Source: a virus. Taken from it: a stretch of DNA of 48,653 bases. Of this stretch, positions 13,527 to 24,745 are shown piece by piece. Position 1 is the stretch's first letter. Each line of letters opens with the position of its first letter. The notes under the pieces were generated by a model. That model was not told where the DNA came from. It did no database searches and saw only the letters and a list, made by a program, of their open reading frames with translations. A program made the position numbers and the translations under genes. The stretch spans positions 1-48,653 of the IMG/VR virus record IMGVR_UViG_3300025849_000059. One strand, given 5' to 3'.

Positions 13527-14156
13527 ATGGCTCAAATAATTAGATTAAAAAGAAGTACTTCCGCAGGTAGTGCTCCAACTACTTCCGACTTATCAATCGG
13601 AGAATTAGCAATCAACGTTCATGATGGTAAGGTATTCTTAAGAAGAAGTGGTTCGGTTGATGATATTAGAACAGTTTTAACAAATGAGTACACTGGTTCA
13701 GTAGATATCACAGGTTCATTAACCGCAACTGAATTTATTGGAGATGGTTCAGGACTTACTAATCTTACAATTGCACAAACTGCAACTGTAAAACAAGTAT
13801 TTGAAGGAACTACTTGGAGTATTAATCACAACTTAGATACTTTAAATCCAATAGCACAAGCATATGATTCTGCTGGATATCAAATTATTCCACAAACAGT
13901 TCGTATTGTAGATGAAGATAATATGCAGATGACATTCCCTGCATCTGTTAGTGGTTCTGCAGTAGTTGCTAAAGGTGGTCACATAGTTAGTGGTTCAGTA
14001 GATGCAGATAACATTAGTGGATTCGATGAAAAAACAACAACTCTATTAGATGGATTAGGTGTAGTTAGTGGTTCAGAACAAGTTACCTTAACAGGTGATG
14101 TAACTGGAACTGCAGCATCATCTTCAATTGCATCAATTGATGGTGGAGATATATAA
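13527..14156 (+). CDS. Short fibre protein with Mtd-like N-terminus and IDGGDI end
   Basis: This 209-residue protein begins MAQIIRLKRST. The TTSDLSIGELAINVHDGKVFLRR stretch that follows is the common phage fibre N-terminal module with a GELAIN core. Residues ~85-160 form a domain with INHNLDTLNP, IIPQTV and SGSAVVAKGGH motifs. That domain recurs three times in the fibre gene at 17287, so it is a mobile module and perhaps a binding knob. The last residues IDGGDI match the end of the gene at 2509. It starts 5 bases after the S74 fibre stop and is followed by a late-type promoter box. Confidence 0.75.
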   Translation: MAQIIRLKRSTSAGSAPTTSDLSIGELAINVHDGKVFLRRSGSVDDIRTVLTNEYTGSVDITGSLTATEFIGDGSGLTNLTIAQTATVKQVFEGTTWSINHNLDTLNPIAQAYDSAGYQIIPQTVRIVDEDNMQMTFPASVSGSAVVAKGGHIVSGSVDADNISGFDEKTTTLLDGLGVVSGSEQVTLTGDVTGTAASSSIASIDGGDI

Positions 14157-14215: not shown

Positions 14216-17185
14216 ATGATAATACACAGTCCCATAATTTCAGGTTCGTTAACATTCGCAGATGGAGCAACCGTAACATATCCAGATGGTGGTAACTATT
14301 CTGGTTCCTTTAGTGGTTCAATTCAAGTACACAACGTACAATCAGACTTAATTCCAGATGCATCAGGTGCATACGATTTGGGTTCTGAAGCGTTCCCTTT
14401 CCAAGACCTTTGGTTAGTTGGTAGTACTCTTAACATTGGTGGAATAGGAATAGGAGCAGCATCAGCGGGTCTTAGTTTCACTAAAAAAACAGATGGCACA
14501 CCAGCAGATATTGGTGCTAAATCAATTAGTATTGGTGGTATAGGAGTATCTGGTAATAAAAAATTCAAACTGAATGATAACAACAAAGTAACTTTATTAG
14601 ATGCAAATGATGATGTTGATACAATTGAAGTAAAAGAAATTATTCTTAAAGATATTTCTGGTAATGGTAAAAACACTAAACTGAAGAATGATGGTGGTAC
14701 ATTTACTACATCTGAGGTAGATGATGATGATACTGAAACAGCAGCAAACTCGGAAGGTTCATTATCCGGTTCCTTCACTGGTTCTATCCAAGATGCAGAA
14801 TTTAATGGTGATGCTACTTTCAATAACGGAGTGAATGTAACTGGTACTTCAGCACTTGGAACAACAAATGTTTCTGGTCTTGCTTCCTTAGATGGTGGTA
14901 TTGATGTAGATGGAGCATTTACAGTTGCTGATTCAACTGGTAACGTATCAACAAGTGGTACACTTGGTGTAACTGGTCTTTCATCATTAGGAGCAGTATC
15001 CGCATCAGCAATGGATGTAGCAGGTCATATCCTTCCTGCAACACATAACACATACGATTTAGGTTCAACTACAAGATTCTGGAGAGACCTTTACTTATCT
15101 TCAGGTTCATTATACATTAATGGTATTCAAGTATTATCAACAGATGGTACTGATTTAACATTCCAAACAGATGCTGGTGAATCAGTAAAAATCTTAGAGA
15201 CAGGTAATGATACTATTACCTTAGAAACAGTAAATGGTGATATTACACTTACCGCTACTGGTACTGGTAATATTGAATTAGATGCACCTGTACAAATAGC
15301 AGCTGGTAAAAACATTTTATCTTCTGATGGAAACGCAATTTCATTCGCAAGTGATATAGATTTAGGTTCAAATGATGTATTTGCAGCAAACTTAGATGGT
15401 ATAATTTCTGGTTCATCTCAAGTAGTATTACAAGATGCTGATAAAACAGGATTTACAGGAGCAAGTTCAATCACAACATTAGGTACAATTACTGCCGGTG
15501 TATGGAATGGTACTGCAATCGCAAATGCTAATTTAGCAAATGATGGTATTACTATTGATAGTGTTGATATCTCACTAGGAGGTTCAGTAACAACTTTACA
15601 ATTAGGTTCAACTTCATCAACTGCACTTGCTGGAGATACAACAGTAGATGATGTATCTATCGCAAACTTAAAAACAAGATTAGCTGGTGGATTTGCTTCT
15701 AACGCAGTACAAATTGGTGATTCAACTGATACTGTTACAATTGCTGGAAATGCAATCGTTAGTGGTAACTTAACTGTAAGTGGAACAACAACTTCTGTAA
15801 ACTCAAACGAAGTTAACATTGGAGATAACGTTATTGTACTTAACTCTGATGAGACAGGAACACCTTCACAAAATGCGGGTATTGAAATTGAAAGAGGAAC
15901 TGTAACTAATGCAACTATCCTTTGGGATGAATCTAACGATTATTGGGTTTCAGGCCTTGCAGGTGCTGAAGAAAGAATCGTAGTTGGAGCAGGTAACACA
16001 TCTATTACAACATTAGGTACAATTACAACTGGTGTTTGGAATGGTACGGCAATTACAAACTCTTATATTGGAGCAGATGCAATTGATGGTACTAAAATCT
16101 CAGATGATTCAATTAATTCAGAACACTATGTAGATGGTTCTATTGATACTGCTCACATTGGTGACTTACAAGTTACAGGCGGAAAAATTGCTGCAGATGC
16201 AATAACTGCGGCTAAAATTGCTGATAATGCAATTGATTCAGAACACTATACAGATGGTTCTATTGATAGAATACATTTGGCAGCAGATATTATAGATGCA
16301 ACCAAAATCGAAGATGATGCGATTCAATCAGAACATTATGCAGCAGGTAGTGTTGACACAACTGCACTTGGTGCGGATGCAGTAACATCTGCAAAAATAG
16401 CTGATAACGCAATTGATTCAGAACACTATACAAATGGTTCTATTGATACTATACACATTGGTGATTTACAAATTACAACTGCTAAAATTGCAGCAGATGC
16501 AGTGACTGGAGCAAAAATTGCTGATAACGCAATTAATTCAGAACACTATACAGATGGTAGTATTGATAATGTACACTTAGCAGCTGATTCAGTAAATGGA
16601 GCAAAAATAGCTGATGATTCAATTAATTCAGAACACTATGTAGATGGTTCTATTGATAATGCACACTTAGCAACTGATTCAGTAAATGGAGCTAAAATAG
16701 CTGATGATTCGATTGATTCAGAACACTATGTAGATGGTAGTATAGATGCAGCTCACCTAGCTAGTAATTCAGTAACAACTGTTAAAATAGCAGATGATGC
16801 AGTAACTTCAGCAAAACTTGCAGGTTCTTATACTGGAACATGGGCAGTGACTGGAGCAATTACCGCAACTGGTGATATTACAGCATATGCATCTTCTGAT
16901 GAGAGATTAAAGGACAACATTCAAAATATCGAAAATCCAATTGAAAAAGTACAATCACTTAAAGGTGTTACTTGGGATTGGAATGATAATTCATCTGATG
17001 TACAAAAATCACTACCAAATGTAGGGGTTATCGCACAAGATGTAGAGAAAGTTCTTCCTCAGTTGGTTAGAGAAAATGAAGGTGGATATAAGGCAGTTGA
17101 CTATGATAAACTTGTAGGACTTCTTATTGAGGCAGTTAAAGACCAACAATCTCAGATTGATGAGTTAAAGAGTAAATTAGGTTAA
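14216..17185 (+). CDS. Long tail fibre protein with AKIAD/SEHY repeats and S74 chaperone domain
   Basis: This 989-residue fibre lacks the MAxxIxxR start of its neighbours and instead begins MIIHSPIISGSLTFADGA. It has the NTYDLGSTTRFWRDLYL fibre motif and a TTTSVNSNEVNIGDNVIVLN module with WDESNDYWVSGLAG. About 250 residues of tandem repeats follow (AKIADNAIDSEHYTDGSID, about residues 615-870), a regular shaft predicted to be beta-helical or triple-stranded. The S74 domain starts at SSDERLKDNI (second Ser about residue 894), with VGVIAQDVEKVLPQLV and GYKAVDYDKLVGLLIEAV after it. Self-cleavage near that Ser is expected from the family. Two hairpins follow the stop. Confidence 0.9.
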   Translation: MIIHSPIISGSLTFADGATVTYPDGGNYSGSFSGSIQVHNVQSDLIPDASGAYDLGSEAFPFQDLWLVGSTLNIGGIGIGAASAGLSFTKKTDGTPADIGAKSISIGGIGVSGNKKFKLNDNNKVTLLDANDDVDTIEVKEIILKDISGNGKNTKLKNDGGTFTTSEVDDDDTETAANSEGSLSGSFTGSIQDAEFNGDATFNNGVNVTGTSALGTTNVSGLASLDGGIDVDGAFTVADSTGNVSTSGTLGVTGLSSLGAVSASAMDVAGHILPATHNTYDLGSTTRFWRDLYLSSGSLYINGIQVLSTDGTDLTFQTDAGESVKILETGNDTITLETVNGDITLTATGTGNIELDAPVQIAAGKNILSSDGNAISFASDIDLGSNDVFAANLDGIISGSSQVVLQDADKTGFTGASSITTLGTITAGVWNGTAIANANLANDGITIDSVDISLGGSVTTLQLGSTSSTALAGDTTVDDVSIANLKTRLAGGFASNAVQIGDSTDTVTIAGNAIVSGNLTVSGTTTSVNSNEVNIGDNVIVLNSDETGTPSQNAGIEIERGTVTNATILWDESNDYWVSGLAGAEERIVVGAGNTSITTLGTITTGVWNGTAITNSYIGADAIDGTKISDDSINSEHYVDGSIDTAHIGDLQVTGGKIAADAITAAKIADNAIDSEHYTDGSIDRIHLAADIIDATKIEDDAIQSEHYAAGSVDTTALGADAVTSAKIADNAIDSEHYTNGSIDTIHIGDLQITTAKIAADAVTGAKIADNAINSEHYTDGSIDNVHLAADSVNGAKIADDSINSEHYVDGSIDNAHLATDSVNGAKIADDSIDSEHYVDGSIDAAHLASNSVTTVKIADDAVTSAKLAGSYTGTWAVTGAITATGDITAYASSDERLKDNIQNIENPIEKVQSLKGVTWDWNDNSSDVQKSLPNVGVIAQDVEKVLPQLVRENEGGYKAVDYDKLVGLLIEAVKDQQSQIDELKSKLG
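16060..16820 (+). repeat. Tandem AKIAD...SEHY...GSID repeats
   Basis: Units of roughly 85-110 bp encode AKIADxxIxSEHYxDGSIDxxH. Six or more units can be followed by eye, with highly conserved SEHY and GSID cores. They are in frame and end about 30 residues before the S74 domain. Confidence 0.85.
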
Positions 17186-17286: not shown

Positions 17287-19563
17287 ATGGCACAGACAAT
17301 CAAGTTAAAAAGAACCGCGGTACAGGGTAAAATCCCTACAACCTCTAATTTAGATTTAGGGGAATTGGCAATTAATACCTATGATGGTAGGATATTTTTT
17401 GAAAAAGATGTAGATGGGACTCTATCTATACAAGAGATACTTACCACAAATTCACAAAATTCAGGTTCATTTAACTTAACTGGTGCTATATCGGCTTCTT
17501 CATTAAGTATTTCCGGTGATACTACAATAGATGGAAATCTTACTCTTGGTGGTAACATCACAATAGGAGATTCAACAAGTGATTCTATTTCAGTATCAGC
17601 AGATTTCTCTTCATCATTAATACCAGATAGTGGTTCAACTTATGATTTAGGTTCTTCTTCAAAACCTTGGAATGAAGTTCACTCAACAGCTCTTTATGGT
17701 GATGGTTCTAACATTACCAACATTACAGTAGATGCTGCAGCAACTGTATCATCTACATTCACAAATTCATCTTCTGTAACGATTTCTCATAACTTTAACA
17801 CGAGAAATATTCTTGTTGCAGTATATGATAACCAAAATAATCAAATACTTCCTCAGAACGTAAATACTTCTAATTTAGACCAAGTAGTAATTACTCTTTC
17901 ATCTGCACAATCAGGTACAGTAGTAGTTGCAAAAGGTGGTCATATTATTAGTGGTTCTGCAGATGATTCTAATAAGTTAAATGGAGAACTTGCTTCACAT
18001 TATTTAGATTATACCAACTTTACAAACATTCCAAGTGGAATAGTTAGTGGTTCTTCACAAACAATAGCAAATTTACCAACTGGTGTAGTTTCTGGTTCAC
18101 AATCAGATGCAAGAGGACAGTTAGGATTAGATACGGGTGATTCTCCAACATTTACTGATTTAACATTATCAGGTGATTTAGTAGTACAAGGTACAACTAC
18201 AACTCTTAATACTACAACATTTAATGTAGAAGATAATATAATAGAACTTAATTATGGTGGAACTGCAACTGAAAGTGGTTTATTTGTAAAAGATTCAACT
18301 GGTGGTTCAACTACAAGTGGTTCTCTTTTATGGGATGCTACAAATGATTATTGGAAAGCAGGAATAAGTGGTTCGGAATCAAAAGTTCTTTTAGCAAATG
18401 GAGATAGTATAGTATCTTCTTCAGCACAAACAATATTACACTTGGGTGGAACTGATATAATTTCAGGTTCATCACAATTAGATGGTACAACAATCGGAGC
18501 AAGTTCTGATATTGTAGCAAGTGGTTCTTTTAGTGGTTCATATAAAGGAGATGGTAGTGGATTGACTGGGATTCAAGTTGACCAAGTTGTATCAGTAACT
18601 GCATCTTTTGATAATCAATCAACAGTAAATGTATCACATAATTTTGATAGTTACAACGTAATAGTTTCTACATACGATACAAATTATAATCAACTTATAC
18701 CACAAACAGTATCATTAACTAATACGAATACATTACAAGTTGTTTTATCAGCTGCTCACTCTGGTCATGTTGTTGTAGCAAAAGGTGGTCACGTTGTAAG
18801 TGGTTCTGCAAATGATGCAAATCAATTAAATGGAGAAGCTGGTTCTTATTATTTAGATTATGATAATTTTACAAACATTCCAAGTGGAATCGTATCTCAA
18901 TCAGCACAAACAGTTGCACACCTCTCAAATCAAGATATAGATTTAGGAACTGGTGATATAACTGCAACAACAGGTTCATTCGATATAATCGATTTAGATA
19001 GATTATCTCTAACTTCAACACAAACAACAATACCACCTTTACAGCTTACTGCAAACTCTTTAAATGATGGAGTAGGTGCTTTAAGAATAGATGGTTCTCA
19101 AGCAGATATATTCCTTAACCCATCTACTGCTACTCATACTACTGTAACTTTTGCAGTAAATAATGACCAAAGGTTAGCATTTGGTATGGATAATAATAGT
19201 GATTTTTACATCACACGAAGAACTGGTGGAGTTTGGTATGATGATACTCTAGTATTAGATAGAAATACAGGTGAAGTTACTTTAGGATATGATTTAACTG
19301 TAAATGGAAACATAAATGCAACAAATGGTATTATAAGTGGTTCTTCACAAATAACAGATTTAACCACTTATAAAGAAACAGTTAGTGGAGCATCATTCTA
19401 CAATATAACTCATAGTTTAGATGAATCATATCCATTTGTACAAGCATGGAATACTTCTAATGATACACAAGAACAACCATTAGATATTGAATCAGTAAAT
19501 TCAAATGTTATAACAGTTTCCTTCTCAGCAAATTTCTCAGGAAAAATAATAGTAAAAAAATAA
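17287..19563 (+). CDS. Long tail fibre protein with three HN.../AKGGH modules
   Basis: This 758-residue fibre starts MAQTIKLKRTAVQG and continues TTSNLDLGELAINTYDGRIFFEK, the same N-terminal module as the gene at 13527. Two full copies (about residues 150-225 and 435-507) of a ~75-residue domain carry SHNFxxxN, IxPQxV and SGxVVVAKGGHxxSGS motifs. The C-terminus (from about residue 695) is a third, diverged copy ending FSGKIIVKK. A QGTTTTLNTTTFNVEDNIIELN module with LLWDATNDYWKAG lies between the first two. There is no S74 domain. The gene is followed after 3 bases by a glycosyltransferase-like gene, so the two are probably translated from one message. Confidence 0.84.
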   Translation: MAQTIKLKRTAVQGKIPTTSNLDLGELAINTYDGRIFFEKDVDGTLSIQEILTTNSQNSGSFNLTGAISASSLSISGDTTIDGNLTLGGNITIGDSTSDSISVSADFSSSLIPDSGSTYDLGSSSKPWNEVHSTALYGDGSNITNITVDAAATVSSTFTNSSSVTISHNFNTRNILVAVYDNQNNQILPQNVNTSNLDQVVITLSSAQSGTVVVAKGGHIISGSADDSNKLNGELASHYLDYTNFTNIPSGIVSGSSQTIANLPTGVVSGSQSDARGQLGLDTGDSPTFTDLTLSGDLVVQGTTTTLNTTTFNVEDNIIELNYGGTATESGLFVKDSTGGSTTSGSLLWDATNDYWKAGISGSESKVLLANGDSIVSSSAQTILHLGGTDIISGSSQLDGTTIGASSDIVASGSFSGSYKGDGSGLTGIQVDQVVSVTASFDNQSTVNVSHNFDSYNVIVSTYDTNYNQLIPQTVSLTNTNTLQVVLSAAHSGHVVVAKGGHVVSGSANDANQLNGEAGSYYLDYDNFTNIPSGIVSQSAQTVAHLSNQDIDLGTGDITATTGSFDIIDLDRLSLTSTQTTIPPLQLTANSLNDGVGALRIDGSQADIFLNPSTATHTTVTFAVNNDQRLAFGMDNNSDFYITRRTGGVWYDDTLVLDRNTGEVTLGYDLTVNGNINATNGIISGSSQITDLTTYKETVSGASFYNITHSLDESYPFVQAWNTSNDTQEQPLDIESVNSNVITVSFSANFSGKIIVKK

Positions 19564-19566
19564 AAT

Positions 19567-20568
19567 ATGTATGATGTCTATTATACAACAGGTGGAGGTC
19601 CTTGGGTAAACGCAGGAACTGATACATGGGTTAATATTTGGTTAGAAGAAATCGCACCAAAATTAAAAGTAAAACCAGTCCTTCTTATACACAGAAACAA
19701 ACCAAGAAACTTTAACGAATATGATTATGAATTTCCAATAGAAACCCATTGGCATGGTGATGATTTAAGAAAGTTTGAAAAAATTGTTAAGGATTGTAGA
19801 AGAATACACATATTACATGGACATTATACTCCAATGAAAGTGTTAGTAGATAATAAAAAGAAAATCTATTCAAATGTTTTACATAACTCAGTAGACCATA
19901 TTATTAAAAACGCACTTGGTAGTGACCAAGATTTTGGACACCATCCTTACATTGATGCAGCATGGGAAGAAGATGTAAATAAATGGTCAAAGAAATCTAT
20001 ATGGATTGGGTTGTATAAGATTAAGTACGAAAACGAGAACATACCAAACTTTTATGAGTTTAAACATAACCTTCCTTTATCATATTCTAATAATTTAGGA
20101 TTTGCAGCAAGAAGTGAAGGTAGAAAAAATCCACATTTCTTAGATGGTAAAAAAGCATATGTTTTTACTGATTCGGTACAATTTAATGGAATATTCAAAC
20201 AAGGATTTAACATGGATACTACCAAAATGAGAATTTATCATTATAAACCAGAATTTGGTGAAAAGTTTTATAATATGAGTTGGGGAATATCTCATTCTTG
20301 TTTTACATACGAACCATTTGGATATTCAATATTCCAAGCAGTAGATTGGGGAAAATTACCTATTTTACATACATCTTGGTGTAAAGATTTGGAGTATCCA
20401 TATAGAGCAACGTTTAAAAAAGATTTTGATGATATTTATAATAGGTTACTAGAAACCTCTTATGAAGAAAAAAATAAGTGGTTTTTACACCTTAAAAAAT
20501 ATATGATTAATAATTTTACCAACAAAGATAAGTGGGTAAATGAATTACTTAATATTTATAATATATAA
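19567..20568 (+). CDS. GT-B (GT4-like) glycosyltransferase
   Basis: This 333-residue protein resembles retaining GT-B glycosyltransferases. The N-terminus has a GGGPWVNAG loop like the donor/acceptor GG loop. AARSEGRKNPHFLDG (about residues 180-194) is in the position of the usual R...K diphosphate-binding pair. EPFGYSIFQAVDWGKLPI (249-266) matches the E-x7-E signature, except that the second Glu is Gln257. It starts 3 bases after a fibre gene and is followed by the Hint-domain virion protein. It may glycosylate virion fibre proteins or host surface sugars; the target is inference. The Gln substitution could lower or change activity. Confidence 0.7.
   Translation: MYDVYYTTGGGPWVNAGTDTWVNIWLEEIAPKLKVKPVLLIHRNKPRNFNEYDYEFPIETHWHGDDLRKFEKIVKDCRRIHILHGHYTPMKVLVDNKKKIYSNVLHNSVDHIIKNALGSDQDFGHHPYIDAAWEEDVNKWSKKSIWIGLYKIKYENENIPNFYEFKHNLPLSYSNNLGFAARSEGRKNPHFLDGKKAYVFTDSVQFNGIFKQGFNMDTTKMRIYHYKPEFGEKFYNMSWGISHSCFTYEPFGYSIFQAVDWGKLPILHTSWCKDLEYPYRATFKKDFDDIYNRLLETSYEEKNKWFLHLKKYMINNFTNKDKWVNELLNIYNI
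20552..20560 (+). promoter_or_regulatory. Late-promoter-like box ATATTTATA
   Basis: The box overlaps the last codons of the glycosyltransferase gene. A TTAGGAGAAA ribosome-binding site follows before the ATG at 20582. Confidence 0.55.
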
Positions 20569-20581
20569 TTAGGAGAAAAAT

Positions 20582-21907
20582 ATGCCATCATTAAGTTCAG
20601 GAGATACGCTATCATTAAACAACTTAGGTTTAGCTACTGATACCGCGACAAAATCAATATCTTCTATTGTGGGGGGAAGTCCCTCGGCAGGAGATAACAT
20701 TAGTTTTTCATCGTTCGCAATCGATTCGGTTGGTTCAATTAGTGGATATACTTATGGAGTAGAAGATACTTCAGAAGATTATACTCTAACTTTTAGTGGT
20801 GCAGGAACACGTCATGGTACTACGATAGCAACTACCGCAACAAACTTCACATGGAGTAGTTCAAATGGTACAATGATATCGATAGGTGGTTCAGAACATA
20901 AGACAGCAACGATAACTTATGGAGAGAATGGAGATAACTCCTTACAATCTGTATTACAGGCTATTGGAGGTGCATACACCTTGACTTGTAATTATGATGA
21001 ACCTTACAATGACCACATTGGTGGAGTTGGTGCTGGATTTATGGGACAGGATAGAAATAAATCTATATATGTTGTAGATTCTTATGATGGAAACGCAGCA
21101 GCACTTTGTTTAACTGCGGATTCACCAATTCTTTTAGCAGATGGTACAATTGTAGATGCAGGTGATTTAGAAGAAGGTGATGTATTAAAAGGATATGCAC
21201 TTGCAGGTTTAGATGAAGATTCAGATGGAACTTTTCTTGATTGGTCTAATTCAGAACTTGGTGAAGTTGCAAAAGATGTAACAATAGTAAACCTTACTTA
21301 TTCTTTCGCATCAAGATACTATAATGTTAACGATGGGGAAATTACTGGTACTTCAGAACACCCAATGTTAGTGAAAGATTCAGCAGATAACTTATTCAAA
21401 TTTAAAGAACTAAGAAATTTACTAGTTGGTGATAAATTAATCAAATCAGATAATGGTAGTATTGTTGAAGTAAATGTAGATTCAGTAACAACATCTGATA
21501 GTACAGTAGAAATTGTATCAATAGATGTTGAAGAACAAGATACATACTTAGTAAATGGATATATTACACACAACAAAGGTGGTAATTCATTTAGTCAATT
21601 TTCAGGACCTGCAGCACCAGCTAACTTAGCATATAATAACCCAGCTGGAGCACAAAACTCAACATTGACTTGGGATGAACCAACTTCAACAGGTACTGAG
21701 GGTATAACTGAGTATCAATTACAAGTTGATGATTCTAATGGATTTGGTTCGTTAGATTCAACTCATAGTGGTACTTATAGTACAAGAACACTTAATGTAT
21801 CTGGTCTTTCAACTGGTACATGGTATGCAAGAGTAAGAGCAAGAGAAAGTGGTGTGTGGGGAGCATATTCATCCGCACTTGAGTTCTCTCATACATTTGA
21901 AAATTAA
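20582..21907 (+). CDS. Virion-type protein with internal Hint (intein-like) domain and fibronectin III-like C-terminus
   Basis: This 441-residue protein has three parts. Residues 1-175 are Ser/Gly-rich and beta-like, unlike anything recognised. Residues 176-331 form a Hint domain. It starts at Cys176 with CLTADSPILLADGTIVDAGD (intein block A) and continues with a LEEGDVL turn. Block B follows as GTSEHPM (Thr257, His260). It ends with block F/G (TYLVNGYITHN), His330-Asn331. The residue after Asn331 is Lys, not Cys/Ser/Thr, so classical intein splicing is not expected; N-terminal or C-terminal cleavage, or cross-linking as in bacterial intein-like domains, is more likely. Residues ~345-440 (PAAPANL...LTWDEP...YQLQVDD...WYARVRAR) resemble a fibronectin III domain. 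No homing endonuclease is inserted. Confidence 0.8.
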   Translation: MPSLSSGDTLSLNNLGLATDTATKSISSIVGGSPSAGDNISFSSFAIDSVGSISGYTYGVEDTSEDYTLTFSGAGTRHGTTIATTATNFTWSSSNGTMISIGGSEHKTATITYGENGDNSLQSVLQAIGGAYTLTCNYDEPYNDHIGGVGAGFMGQDRNKSIYVVDSYDGNAAALCLTADSPILLADGTIVDAGDLEEGDVLKGYALAGLDEDSDGTFLDWSNSELGEVAKDVTIVNLTYSFASRYYNVNDGEITGTSEHPMLVKDSADNLFKFKELRNLLVGDKLIKSDNGSIVEVNVDSVTTSDSTVEIVSIDVEEQDTYLVNGYITHNKGGNSFSQFSGPAAPANLAYNNPAGAQNSTLTWDEPTSTGTEGITEYQLQVDDSNGFGSLDSTHSGTYSTRTLNVSGLSTGTWYARVRARESGVWGAYSSALEFSHTFEN

Positions 21908-21983: not shown

Positions 21984-22277
21984 ATGGCAGAAGCAATTAA
22001 GTTTACAGCAGAAGAAATTCAATCAATTAACGATTTACGTCAAGAGGTAGGTTCTATTTTTACTAAATTAGGACAACTTTCTATACAAAAGCAAAGAGCA
22101 ATTAACGATTTAGATAATGCTCAGGCTAAATTAATAGAAGAACACCAATCTCTTGTAATAAAAGAACAAGAATTGTTCAAAGGATTGAATGAAAAATATG
22201 GAGATGGTAACTTTGACCCTACAAGTGGTGAATTTACTCCATCTACAAAAGAAGAAACAGCTAAAGTAGAAGGATAG
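21984..22277 (+). CDS. Small coiled-coil protein upstream of tail sheath
   Basis: This 97-residue protein is mainly one long predicted helix: residues 8-70 are rich in Glu, Gln, Lys and Leu. A short tail with YGDGNFDPTSGEFTP follows. Similar small helical proteins with a YGDGxxDxxxGxFTP end occur in T4-like marine phages (recalled, not searched). Function unknown. It sits between the Hint-domain gene and the sheath gene and has its own late-type promoter. Confidence 0.65.
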   Translation: MAEAIKFTAEEIQSINDLRQEVGSIFTKLGQLSIQKQRAINDLDNAQAKLIEEHQSLVIKEQELFKGLNEKYGDGNFDPTSGEFTPSTKEETAKVEG

Positions 22278-22354: not shown

Positions 22355-24745
22355 ATGGCAGAAAAGATTGTATCACCTGGTGTATTTACGAGAGAAAATG
22401 ACCTTTCTTTCTTATCACAAGGGATTGGAGAAATCGGAGCAGCAATAATTGGACCTTTTCATAAAGGACCTGCTTTCGTTCCAACCGTTGTAAGTACACA
22501 ATCAGAATTCGAAGAAATATTCGGCACCCCTAATGGAGATTACTATTCAGGGTATACCGTACAAAATTATTTAAGAGAAGCTGGAGTAGCTACTATTGTT
22601 CGTGTAGGACATATAGGTGGTTATACTCATGCAGCACCTCTTGGAATTAAATTAAGTGGTGTGGGTACTAAAGATGATAAAATCATCGGTGTACTACATG
22701 GAACTGATAACCTTGCAGATGCAGATGGAAACATCACAACTGAATTATTTGCTTCAACAGCAATAGACGCACAACCTTCAGCATCAGCATTCTCAATTTC
22801 AGGTTCCTTATTAGGAAGTGAAATTTCGGCATCAGTTTTACCAACCGCAGGAAACGATTTATCAGATGTATTTGGAGAAAGTGCATTTGGTGGTAAAAAA
22901 GTATATTCATTTAAATATTTTGAAAACGCAGCAACTGATTTTGCAAACCACCTTACTAATAGTGGTTCTCAAGTTTCTTTAGTTGCATTATCAGACCAAG
23001 ATTTTTCACAAGATACTCAACACGCCTCCACTCCTTGGATACAATCACAGTTGATTTCTGGTGAAAGATATAATCTTTTCAAATTACATACTTTAGGTGA
23101 TGGTACTTATGCAAACAAAGAATTTAAAGTATCTATCTTTAATGTAAAAGCAGCAGGAACTTCTAACGCATCTGATTATGGAACATTCTCACTTGCAATT
23201 AGAGGATATGGTGATACAGATAAGAGAAAAACAGTAATTGAAACATTTAACAACTTATCTATGGACCCTGCTTCACCAAATTACATTAAGAAAGTAATAG
23301 GTGACCAAAATATATCAATTGATGCAGTTGGAAAAATGTCAATGGATGGTGATTATGTAAATCGTTCTAAATTTGTTAGAGTTGAAACAGTAACAGAAGG
23401 AGCATCTCCTATAACTGCAGTACCATTTGGACATGGTGCTTATACTAACCCAATTTTTGTGGGTGGTTCTGAATCAGATGTACCAGCAGTAATATTCTCT
23501 ACTGGTTCTGCTAATAACAACGCATCAACATCAGTAAAATATAGTGGTATTGATTTAGAAACTGCATTAGTAAAAATTGATAATTCATCATACCTTTCAC
23601 CAATACCTGCTTCGGCAACTATCGGTGGAAATACAGTATTTGCATTTGATGCAAATATAAACATTGCAGGTGGTACTAAGAATCACCAAGATGATGGGTA
23701 CGGTACATTTAACTTTGCTTATACTATATCTACTGCAGATGATGCAGCAACTATCGCTAAAAGACAATTTACAGTAGGATTCCAAGGTGGATTCGATGGT
23801 ATATCTCCAACAATCAAACCAGCTAAAGCTGATGATGCACAATGGGGAGCAGGAAACTCACAAGGATTTAACTTATCAACTTCAACAGCAAGTGGTTCGG
23901 TTGCATATGTAAAAGCAATTAACGCAGTATCTAACCCAGATGATTTCGATATCAACTTGGTATCTGCACCTGGTGTTGTAAGAAGATTACATTCTTATGT
24001 ATTTGATAAAGTTGTAGATATGGTAGAAGCTAGAGAAGATGCATTCTTCATTGGTGATGTAACTGATAAAGATGATAGTATTGAACAATCAATACAAGAA
24101 GGACAGTCAGTAGATTCTAACTATGTGGGTACTTACTACCCATGGGTTAAAACAATTGATTCCAGAACAAATAAACTAACTTCAGTTCCTCCATCAGTAT
24201 TGATGCCAGGTATCTTTGCTGAAAACGATGCAGTTGCAGCCGAATGGTTTGCACCAGCAGGTTTAAACAGAGGTGGTATTACCGGAGCAGTTTCTGTATT
24301 AAACAGATTAACTCACGCTGAGAGAGATACACTATATGAAGGAAAGATTAATCCAATCGCACAATTCCCAGGTGAGGGTATCGTTGCTTTCGGACAGAAA
24401 ACTCTACAAGATAGAGCATCAGCACTTGATAGAATCAACGTAAGAAGATTATTAATCAAAGTGAAGAAATACATTGCATCTACATCAAGATACCTTGTAT
24501 TCGAACAAAACACATCTCAAACAAGAGGAAAATTCTTGAATACTGTTAATCCTTATTTAGAAGGAATACAACAAAGACAAGGACTTTACGCTTTTAGAGT
24601 AGTAATGGATGAAAGTAATAACACACCAGATGTAATCGATAGAAACATCTTAGCAGGGGCAATTTATTTACAACCTACTAAGACTGCTGAATTCATTGTA
24701 ATTGATTTCAACATTCTACCGACTGGGGCTTCGTTCTCGGCATAA
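22355..24745 (+). CDS. 18: Contractile tail sheath protein (gp18-like)
   Basis: This 796-residue protein forms the contractile outer tube of the tail. The N-terminal SPGVFTRENDLSFL matches the gp18-type start. GPFHKGPAFVPTVV and FEEIFGTP...YYSGYTVQNYL are the sheath family's first conserved block. The C-terminal block (about residues 650-796) contains RRLLIKVKKYIA, FLNTVNPYLEGIQQRQGLYAFRV, which is the part that contacts the tube and neighbouring subunits. It is longer than T4 gp18 (659 residues), with extra sequence in the variable middle. The ATG has a strong AAGGAG site. The next gene is the tube protein, the expected order. Confidence 0.96.
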   Translation: MAEKIVSPGVFTRENDLSFLSQGIGEIGAAIIGPFHKGPAFVPTVVSTQSEFEEIFGTPNGDYYSGYTVQNYLREAGVATIVRVGHIGGYTHAAPLGIKLSGVGTKDDKIIGVLHGTDNLADADGNITTELFASTAIDAQPSASAFSISGSLLGSEISASVLPTAGNDLSDVFGESAFGGKKVYSFKYFENAATDFANHLTNSGSQVSLVALSDQDFSQDTQHASTPWIQSQLISGERYNLFKLHTLGDGTYANKEFKVSIFNVKAAGTSNASDYGTFSLAIRGYGDTDKRKTVIETFNNLSMDPASPNYIKKVIGDQNISIDAVGKMSMDGDYVNRSKFVRVETVTEGASPITAVPFGHGAYTNPIFVGGSESDVPAVIFSTGSANNNASTSVKYSGIDLETALVKIDNSSYLSPIPASATIGGNTVFAFDANINIAGGTKNHQDDGYGTFNFAYTISTADDAATIAKRQFTVGFQGGFDGISPTIKPAKADDAQWGAGNSQGFNLSTSTASGSVAYVKAINAVSNPDDFDINLVSAPGVVRRLHSYVFDKVVDMVEAREDAFFIGDVTDKDDSIEQSIQEGQSVDSNYVGTYYPWVKTIDSRTNKLTSVPPSVLMPGIFAENDAVAAEWFAPAGLNRGGITGAVSVLNRLTHAERDTLYEGKINPIAQFPGEGIVAFGQKTLQDRASALDRINVRRLLIKVKKYIASTSRYLVFEQNTSQTRGKFLNTVNPYLEGIQQRQGLYAFRVVMDESNNTPDVIDRNILAGAIYLQPTKTAEFIVIDFNILPTGASFSA

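Follow-up and report, generated by a model that had tools for sequence, protein, structure and literature searches.

We identified a Hint domain inside a 441-residue protein of a marine phage, whose 48,653-base IMG/VR record is the stretch of DNA analysed here in full (the window). The sequence and its predicted structure argue, with a probability slightly above one half (about 0.55), that this is an active autoprocessing domain resembling the A-type bacterial intein-like (BIL) domains and is a constant component of a modular, adhesin-like tail-region protein. The features of the locus, all on the + strand, are as follows.

19567..20568, +, 333-residue glycosyltransferase (GT) with a predicted GT-B/GT4-like fold, directly upstream of the Hint gene (AlphaFold pLDDT 90, Foldseek)
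20582..21907, +, Hint-containing probable tail-region protein, 441 residues (translation, relatives)
20582..21106, +, N-part, residues 1–175, Ser/Thr-rich and beta-rich, last residue Leu175 (model; all 101 close-clade members have Leu at −1)
21107..21574, +, Hint domain, residues 176–331, 156 residues, without an endonuclease insertion (profiles, fold match)
21107..21109, +, Cys176 (position 1), start of CLTADSP (176–182), putative thioester former (unchanged in every complete relative)
21350..21361, +, block B TSEH, residues 257–260, TxxH motif (101/101 of the close clade; 148/150 with distant members included)
21539..21541, +, Asp320 at the block F position (Asp throughout the close clade; His in 20/50 distant members)
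21569..21574, +, block G His330-Asn331, putative site of Asn cyclisation and C-side cleavage (invariant)
21575..21580, +, Lys332-Gly333 at +1/+2, standing where inteins have their splicing nucleophile (Lys in 179/179, Gly in 176/179)
21575..21904, +, C-part, a linker and a fibronectin III (FN3)-like domain (relatives carry LamG-like, other or 6–9-residue tails instead)
21984..22277, +, 97-residue protein with coiled-coil-like matches, a conserved neighbour given as context only
22355..24745, +, tail sheath gene, given as context only (Phage_sheath_1, E = 2.2e-12; phrog_23, E = 2.4e-70)

Downstream of the Hint gene come the gene for the 97-residue protein and those for tail sheath and tube, and a role of the Hint gene product in the tail module is likely as judged by gene position. 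The original prediction, which was made from the letters of the DNA, had placed the protein in the virion region, and this holds as far as gene position goes. A further self-cleaving domain is encoded a few kb upstream, where the tail fibre of 14216–17185 has a Peptidase_S74 intramolecular chaperone at its end. The products of 13527–14156 and 17287–19563 both match phrog_21918 and phrog_16122, which suggests a shared, repeated fibre domain.

Hint domain and active-site residues

Searches with the single protein gave modest matches to NCBIfam intein_Nterm (residues 176–264, E = 4.7e-4) and Pfam PT-HINT (E = 7.5e-4), both under the curated cut-offs, and to the BIL domain 2lwy in the PDB (E = 3e-3). 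The evidence is firm at the level of the family: Intein_splicing was matched by 17 of 21 members and PT-HINT by 16 of 21 (best E = 1.5e-5), and a PDB search with the family profile retrieved BIL2 of Tetrahymena BUBL1 (6y75, E = 7e-6) and 2lwy (E = 1e-4). An AlphaFold model of the 441-residue protein, built from a 21-sequence alignment with a mean pLDDT of 75, was compared with known structures. The target-normalised TM scores were 0.84 for 2lwy, 0.80 for BUBL1 BIL2, 0.79 for the Ssp DnaB intein (1mi8) and 0.73 for Hedgehog (1at0). By profiles, AlphaFold model and Foldseek, BIL domains are thus the closest to the predicted domain. The Hint assignment to residues 176–331 in the original prediction is therefore borne out, and the residue numbers given there (CLTADSP 176–182, TSEH 257–260, HN 330–331, Lys332) proved exact on re-reading.

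The patterns used to retrieve relatives were taken from the full-length protein, from its N-part and Hint domain separately, and from the neighbouring gene. In the alignment of 101 close relatives, Leu at −1, Cys1, the Thr and His of block B, Asp320, His-Asn and Lys at +1 are all invariant. Cys1 is likewise invariant across 179 distinct complete relatives sharing the N-part (IMG/VR loci); His-Asn is followed by Lys in all 179 and by Lys-Gly in 176. The lack of Cys, Ser or Thr at +1, noted in the original prediction for the single protein, thus extends to the whole family. The invariance of the lysine is not an artefact of the search, because the sets seeded with the N-part and with the GT are independent of the Hint residues. 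At Leu−1, Thr, His, Asn and Lys+1 the codons vary synonymously while the residue stays fixed, and therefore selection acts on the amino acid; the Cys1 codon is TGT throughout and is uninformative in this respect. Judging from these sequences, the absence of a +1 nucleophile is a fixed trait and not decay, and the lysine is probably functional because it is invariant. The AlphaFold model has a pLDDT below 50 at residues 332–341. This low confidence after Asn331 gives Lys332 no obvious hold by the predicted fold.

Exchangeable C-part and partner glycosyltransferase

The N-part was described in the original prediction as novel and beta-rich; the model agrees, and searches against Pfam and PHROG matched no family. 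The FN3-like nature of the C-part was confirmed by fn3 matches in 9 of 21 family members (best E = 7e-8). Distant members have the same N-part and Hint domain followed by a different C-part. One of the two distant members tested matched Laminin_G_3 (E = 1.9e-18) in a LamG-like C-part, and further types comprise one of 138–145 residues and another of 108 residues. The shortest C-parts have 6–9 residues only (e.g. KGTNDAP) and retain Lys+1 and Gly+2. The point of exchange is exactly HN|KG. Since KG is kept where almost nothing comes after it, its role probably lies in the Hint reaction; together with their place outside the confidently modelled fold, this pattern points to involvement of Lys+1/Gly+2 in the processing chemistry, and not in the fold or the C-part. 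In a tree built from 80 Hint domains, about four changes account for the C-part types, and the FN3-tailed proteins, including that of the window, form a single clade. So few changes, with the types grouped in large clades, ruled out recent hypervariable shuffling of the C-part.

The Hint domain was attached to every N-part found, over N-parts as low as 25% in identity, except for one that runs past a contig end after the Cys and one that is frameshifted within the Hint domain. In a few additional Hint domains the sequence stops at a contig end or the frame is broken. The frames in loci L027, L210 and L226 show an apparent short duplication, an in-frame stop and a frameshift, and these premature ends are likely to be broken frames or assembly or sequencing errors and not Hint loss. 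No Hint-less homologue was found beside the sheath genes of Immutovirus and Microcystis phage Mel-JY01, where the N-part and C-part profiles had no match, and no cellular relative was confirmed in bacterial and archaeal genomes.

The gene directly upstream encodes a protein with a GT-B fold in its predicted structure. The Foldseek matches of its model are GT-B glycosyltransferases (best E = 7.5e-9), and searches against Pfam and PHROG gave no convincing match. It carries the motif EPFGYxIF..D.GKLPI, in which EPFGY...D.GK.PI is the invariant core. All 164 Hint genes with enough upstream sequence are preceded by a GT gene of this family within 1 kb, and a Hint gene lies within 2.2 kb downstream of 188/188 GT genes with enough downstream sequence; these counts are drawn from loci picked by Hint, N-part or GT queries, and the fair measure among them is the set found with the GT. 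There, a Hint protein adjoins the GT in 80/80 loci, one of them cut at a contig end. The pairing of the two genes is obligate in these data, and the GT family was found only beside Hint proteins. The pair also occurs away from a detectable adjacent sheath gene (L177–180, L183, L200, L227, L253); the two genes, rather than the tail operon, thus seem to make up the unit. The pairing is kept in remote phages. In a 484-kb uncultured phage (LR756508.1, L172), a Hint protein flanks a GT of the same family (35% identity) on the opposite side; this Hint protein ends in HN|KH and directly precedes the GT (128323–129883 of that sequence). A second, divergent Hint protein is encoded upstream of the GT in L177, L178, L179, L241 and L253, so that in some of these loci two Hint proteins flank one GT; where read, the four-residue ends of the second proteins are HN|VHxK or HN|GKGE. 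As judged from the pairing, the GT would most likely glycosylate the Ser/Thr-rich Hint protein or its N-part, which is the weakest step of our explanation.

Proposed reaction and competing readings

A-type BIL domains have a terminal His-Asn and no +1 nucleophile, and they mainly cleave and can also splice; in splicing, Asn cyclisation releases an amine, which then attacks the thioester at Cys1 (PMC4031507, PMC7765530). All sequence requirements for this splicing are present in the window protein: a Hint fold without an endonuclease, as in the BIL domain of Clostridium thermocellum (2lwy), with Cys1 and TxxH, a C-terminal His-Asn, and no Cys, Ser or Thr at +1. Self-processing of the protein is likely from its sequence. 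By analogy, Cys176 would shift the Leu175 bond to a thioester and Asn331 would cyclise, freeing Lys332. Either the alpha-amine of Lys332 or, as in the Tetrahymena BIL, its epsilon-amine could then accept the N-part from the thioester. The Hint domain would depart, leaving the N-part bearing KG and the C-part or tail, and competing hydrolysis would yield cleaved fragments. The adjacent GT would most likely modify the protein. We favour ligation or transfer of the N-part to an amine of Lys332, with cleavage as a competing outcome, because of the A-type BIL sequence features and the precedent for a lysine acceptor in Tetrahymena. The Asp at block F counts against this explanation. This position is usually occupied by His, and the replacement could slow Asn cyclisation.

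It is possible, though unlikely, that the protein undergoes cleavage only. The Cys176 thioester would be hydrolysed and Asn331 would cyclise to give a separate N-part, Hint domain and C-part, while Lys+1 would merely suit cyclisation. The invariant His-Asn fits this reading, and cleavage products predominate in A-type BIL domains (PMC4031507). The strict Lys and Gly at +1/+2 have no clear reason under cleavage only, nor does the retention of KG in the short-tailed members, from which just 6–9 residues would be released.

Rather doubtful is a reaction in which the N-part would be joined to the side-chain (epsilon) amine of a lysine, located either in the C-tail or on another subunit, so that a branched or cross-linked virion protein results. 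Its precedent is BIL2 of Tetrahymena BUBL1, which couples its N-flank to a lysine side chain as a K(epsilon-NH2) isopeptide (PMC8616854) and is the top match of the phage Hint domain. In addition, every short C-tail examined, in GT-linked and in other phage Hint proteins, contains Lys. This expectation was set down before the tails were read, and was found in 13/13 tails, known and homologous ones included, against 2.7 expected from composition. Lysines are common at the ends of phage proteins, however, and with a control for this enrichment the three new independent lineages gave p = 0.11, and all ten, a partly post hoc set, 2.6e-4. The lysine in every short tail is thus a suggestive lead, and a weak one once the general enrichment is allowed for.

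An inactive Hint domain serving as a mere structural spacer is improbable, since Cys1, TxxH and His-Asn are strictly conserved and Cys1 is the sole cysteine in 59/100 close relatives; the window protein has two, Cys136 and Cys176.

A Hedgehog-like transfer, in which a non-protein nucleophile (such as a sugar or lipid-linked sugar delivered by way of the paired GT) attacks the thioester and anchors the N-part, is likewise improbable. Speaking for it is the obligate GT pairing, which persists in remote phages and also apart from the sheath gene. Hedgehog Hint domains carry out the N-side step only, whereas His-Asn for the C-side step is invariant in the phage family, and glycosylation of side chains is a simpler account of the GT.

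A transient selfish element, either an ordinary mini-intein or what remains of one, fits the Intein_splicing profile matches but is very improbable, with Cys, Ser or Thr at +1 in 0/179 relatives, no endonuclease, no N-part allele free of Hint, and fixation over the divergent N-parts; a selfish intein was ruled out on the first three of these grounds.

Returning to transfer of the N-part to lysine, a fuller proposal is that the Hint domain links the N-part covalently to a dedicated lysine (as an isopeptide or by nucleophile-free ligation) and that the GT glycosylates the product. This would make a dedicated Hint and GT system in a virion-assembly module for glycosylated, covalently joined tail appendages. 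On the present sequences we regard this complete picture as speculative.

Relation to known Hint proteins

The original prediction was right about the Hint domain, the missing +1 nucleophile, the flanking parts and self-processing as the probable function. Its suggestion that this would be a new way to mature or anchor a structural protein needs some qualification: His-Asn without a +1 nucleophile defines the A-type BIL domains, so the chemistry, splicing or cleavage without that nucleophile, is known in kind. The invariance of the lysine, the modular C-part and the GT had been missed.

Like A-type BIL domains, the phage Hint domain is placed inside modular surface-type proteins. Unlike them, the phage family always has Lys at +1, nearly always followed by Gly, and it is fixed in a tail module with C-parts swapped at HN|KG and a GT gene always adjacent. 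BUBL1 BIL2 (6y75/6tmm) is the best Hint match by profile and a top match by fold, and its reported acceptor is a lysine amine. Such a role of the phage lysine is our inference, and this lysine lies at +1, whereas that of BIL2 is in a flanking domain. The ubiquitin-like flanks typical of BUBL proteins had no match in the phage protein, whose C-part is FN3-like. With class 1 mini-inteins such as Ssp DnaB, the phage domain shares the fold and blocks A, B and G, but it lacks Cys, Ser or Thr at +1 and is not mobile, no empty alleles having been found. The Hedgehog Hog domain shares the fold and the Cys1 thioester; it differs in having a sterol-recognition region and no C-side His-Asn step.

In the open-access literature, no report was found that places Hint proteins in phage tails or links them to glycosyltransferases, or that describes this phage family, its invariant +1 lysine or the Hint–GT pair. 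Novelty, as far as we found, lies in the phage family itself, its fixed lysine, the modularity of its C-part and its pairing with the GT. What is known of A-type BIL domains comes mainly from biochemical work on bacterial proteins whose roles are unclear. A large phage family in which the Hint domain is never lost, the +1 residue is invariant and the GT is obligate gives a means of testing what nucleophile-free Hint chemistry is naturally for. Phages may use self-processing, perhaps with sugar attachment, in building part of the virion, which suggests a post-translational route to tail appendages overlooked by annotation pipelines. The domain is also a possible source of a lysine-accepting ligation tool.

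Hint-bearing phage proteins as such are not rare, and the viral structure library contains entries from uncultured phages named 'Hint domain containing protein'. Among the nearest known systems are Hint proteins of jumbo phages with the domain at the C-terminus (Alexandravirus of Erwinia, Yersinia phage fHe-Yen9-02, NCTB), which have Cys1 and His-Asn and are likewise encoded within a tail or structural gene cluster. They differ in that the Hint domain and a tail of 7–10 residues end the protein, +1 is Thr, Val or Ala, and no GT gene is annotated alongside. Three viral-library structures matching the model of the window protein (A0A1C3NF88, A0A1C3NFC6 and A0A1C3NFC5) look like Hint proteins of phage NCTB (L170), a link based on length and accession similarity only; one of them has the size of an annotated 'large intein domain protein'. 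A separate class of phage Hint proteins (L367–L379) ends in His-Asp followed by Ser (HD|SYxA) and a tail of 35–39 residues, so that the terminal Asn is replaced by Asp and +1 is Ser.
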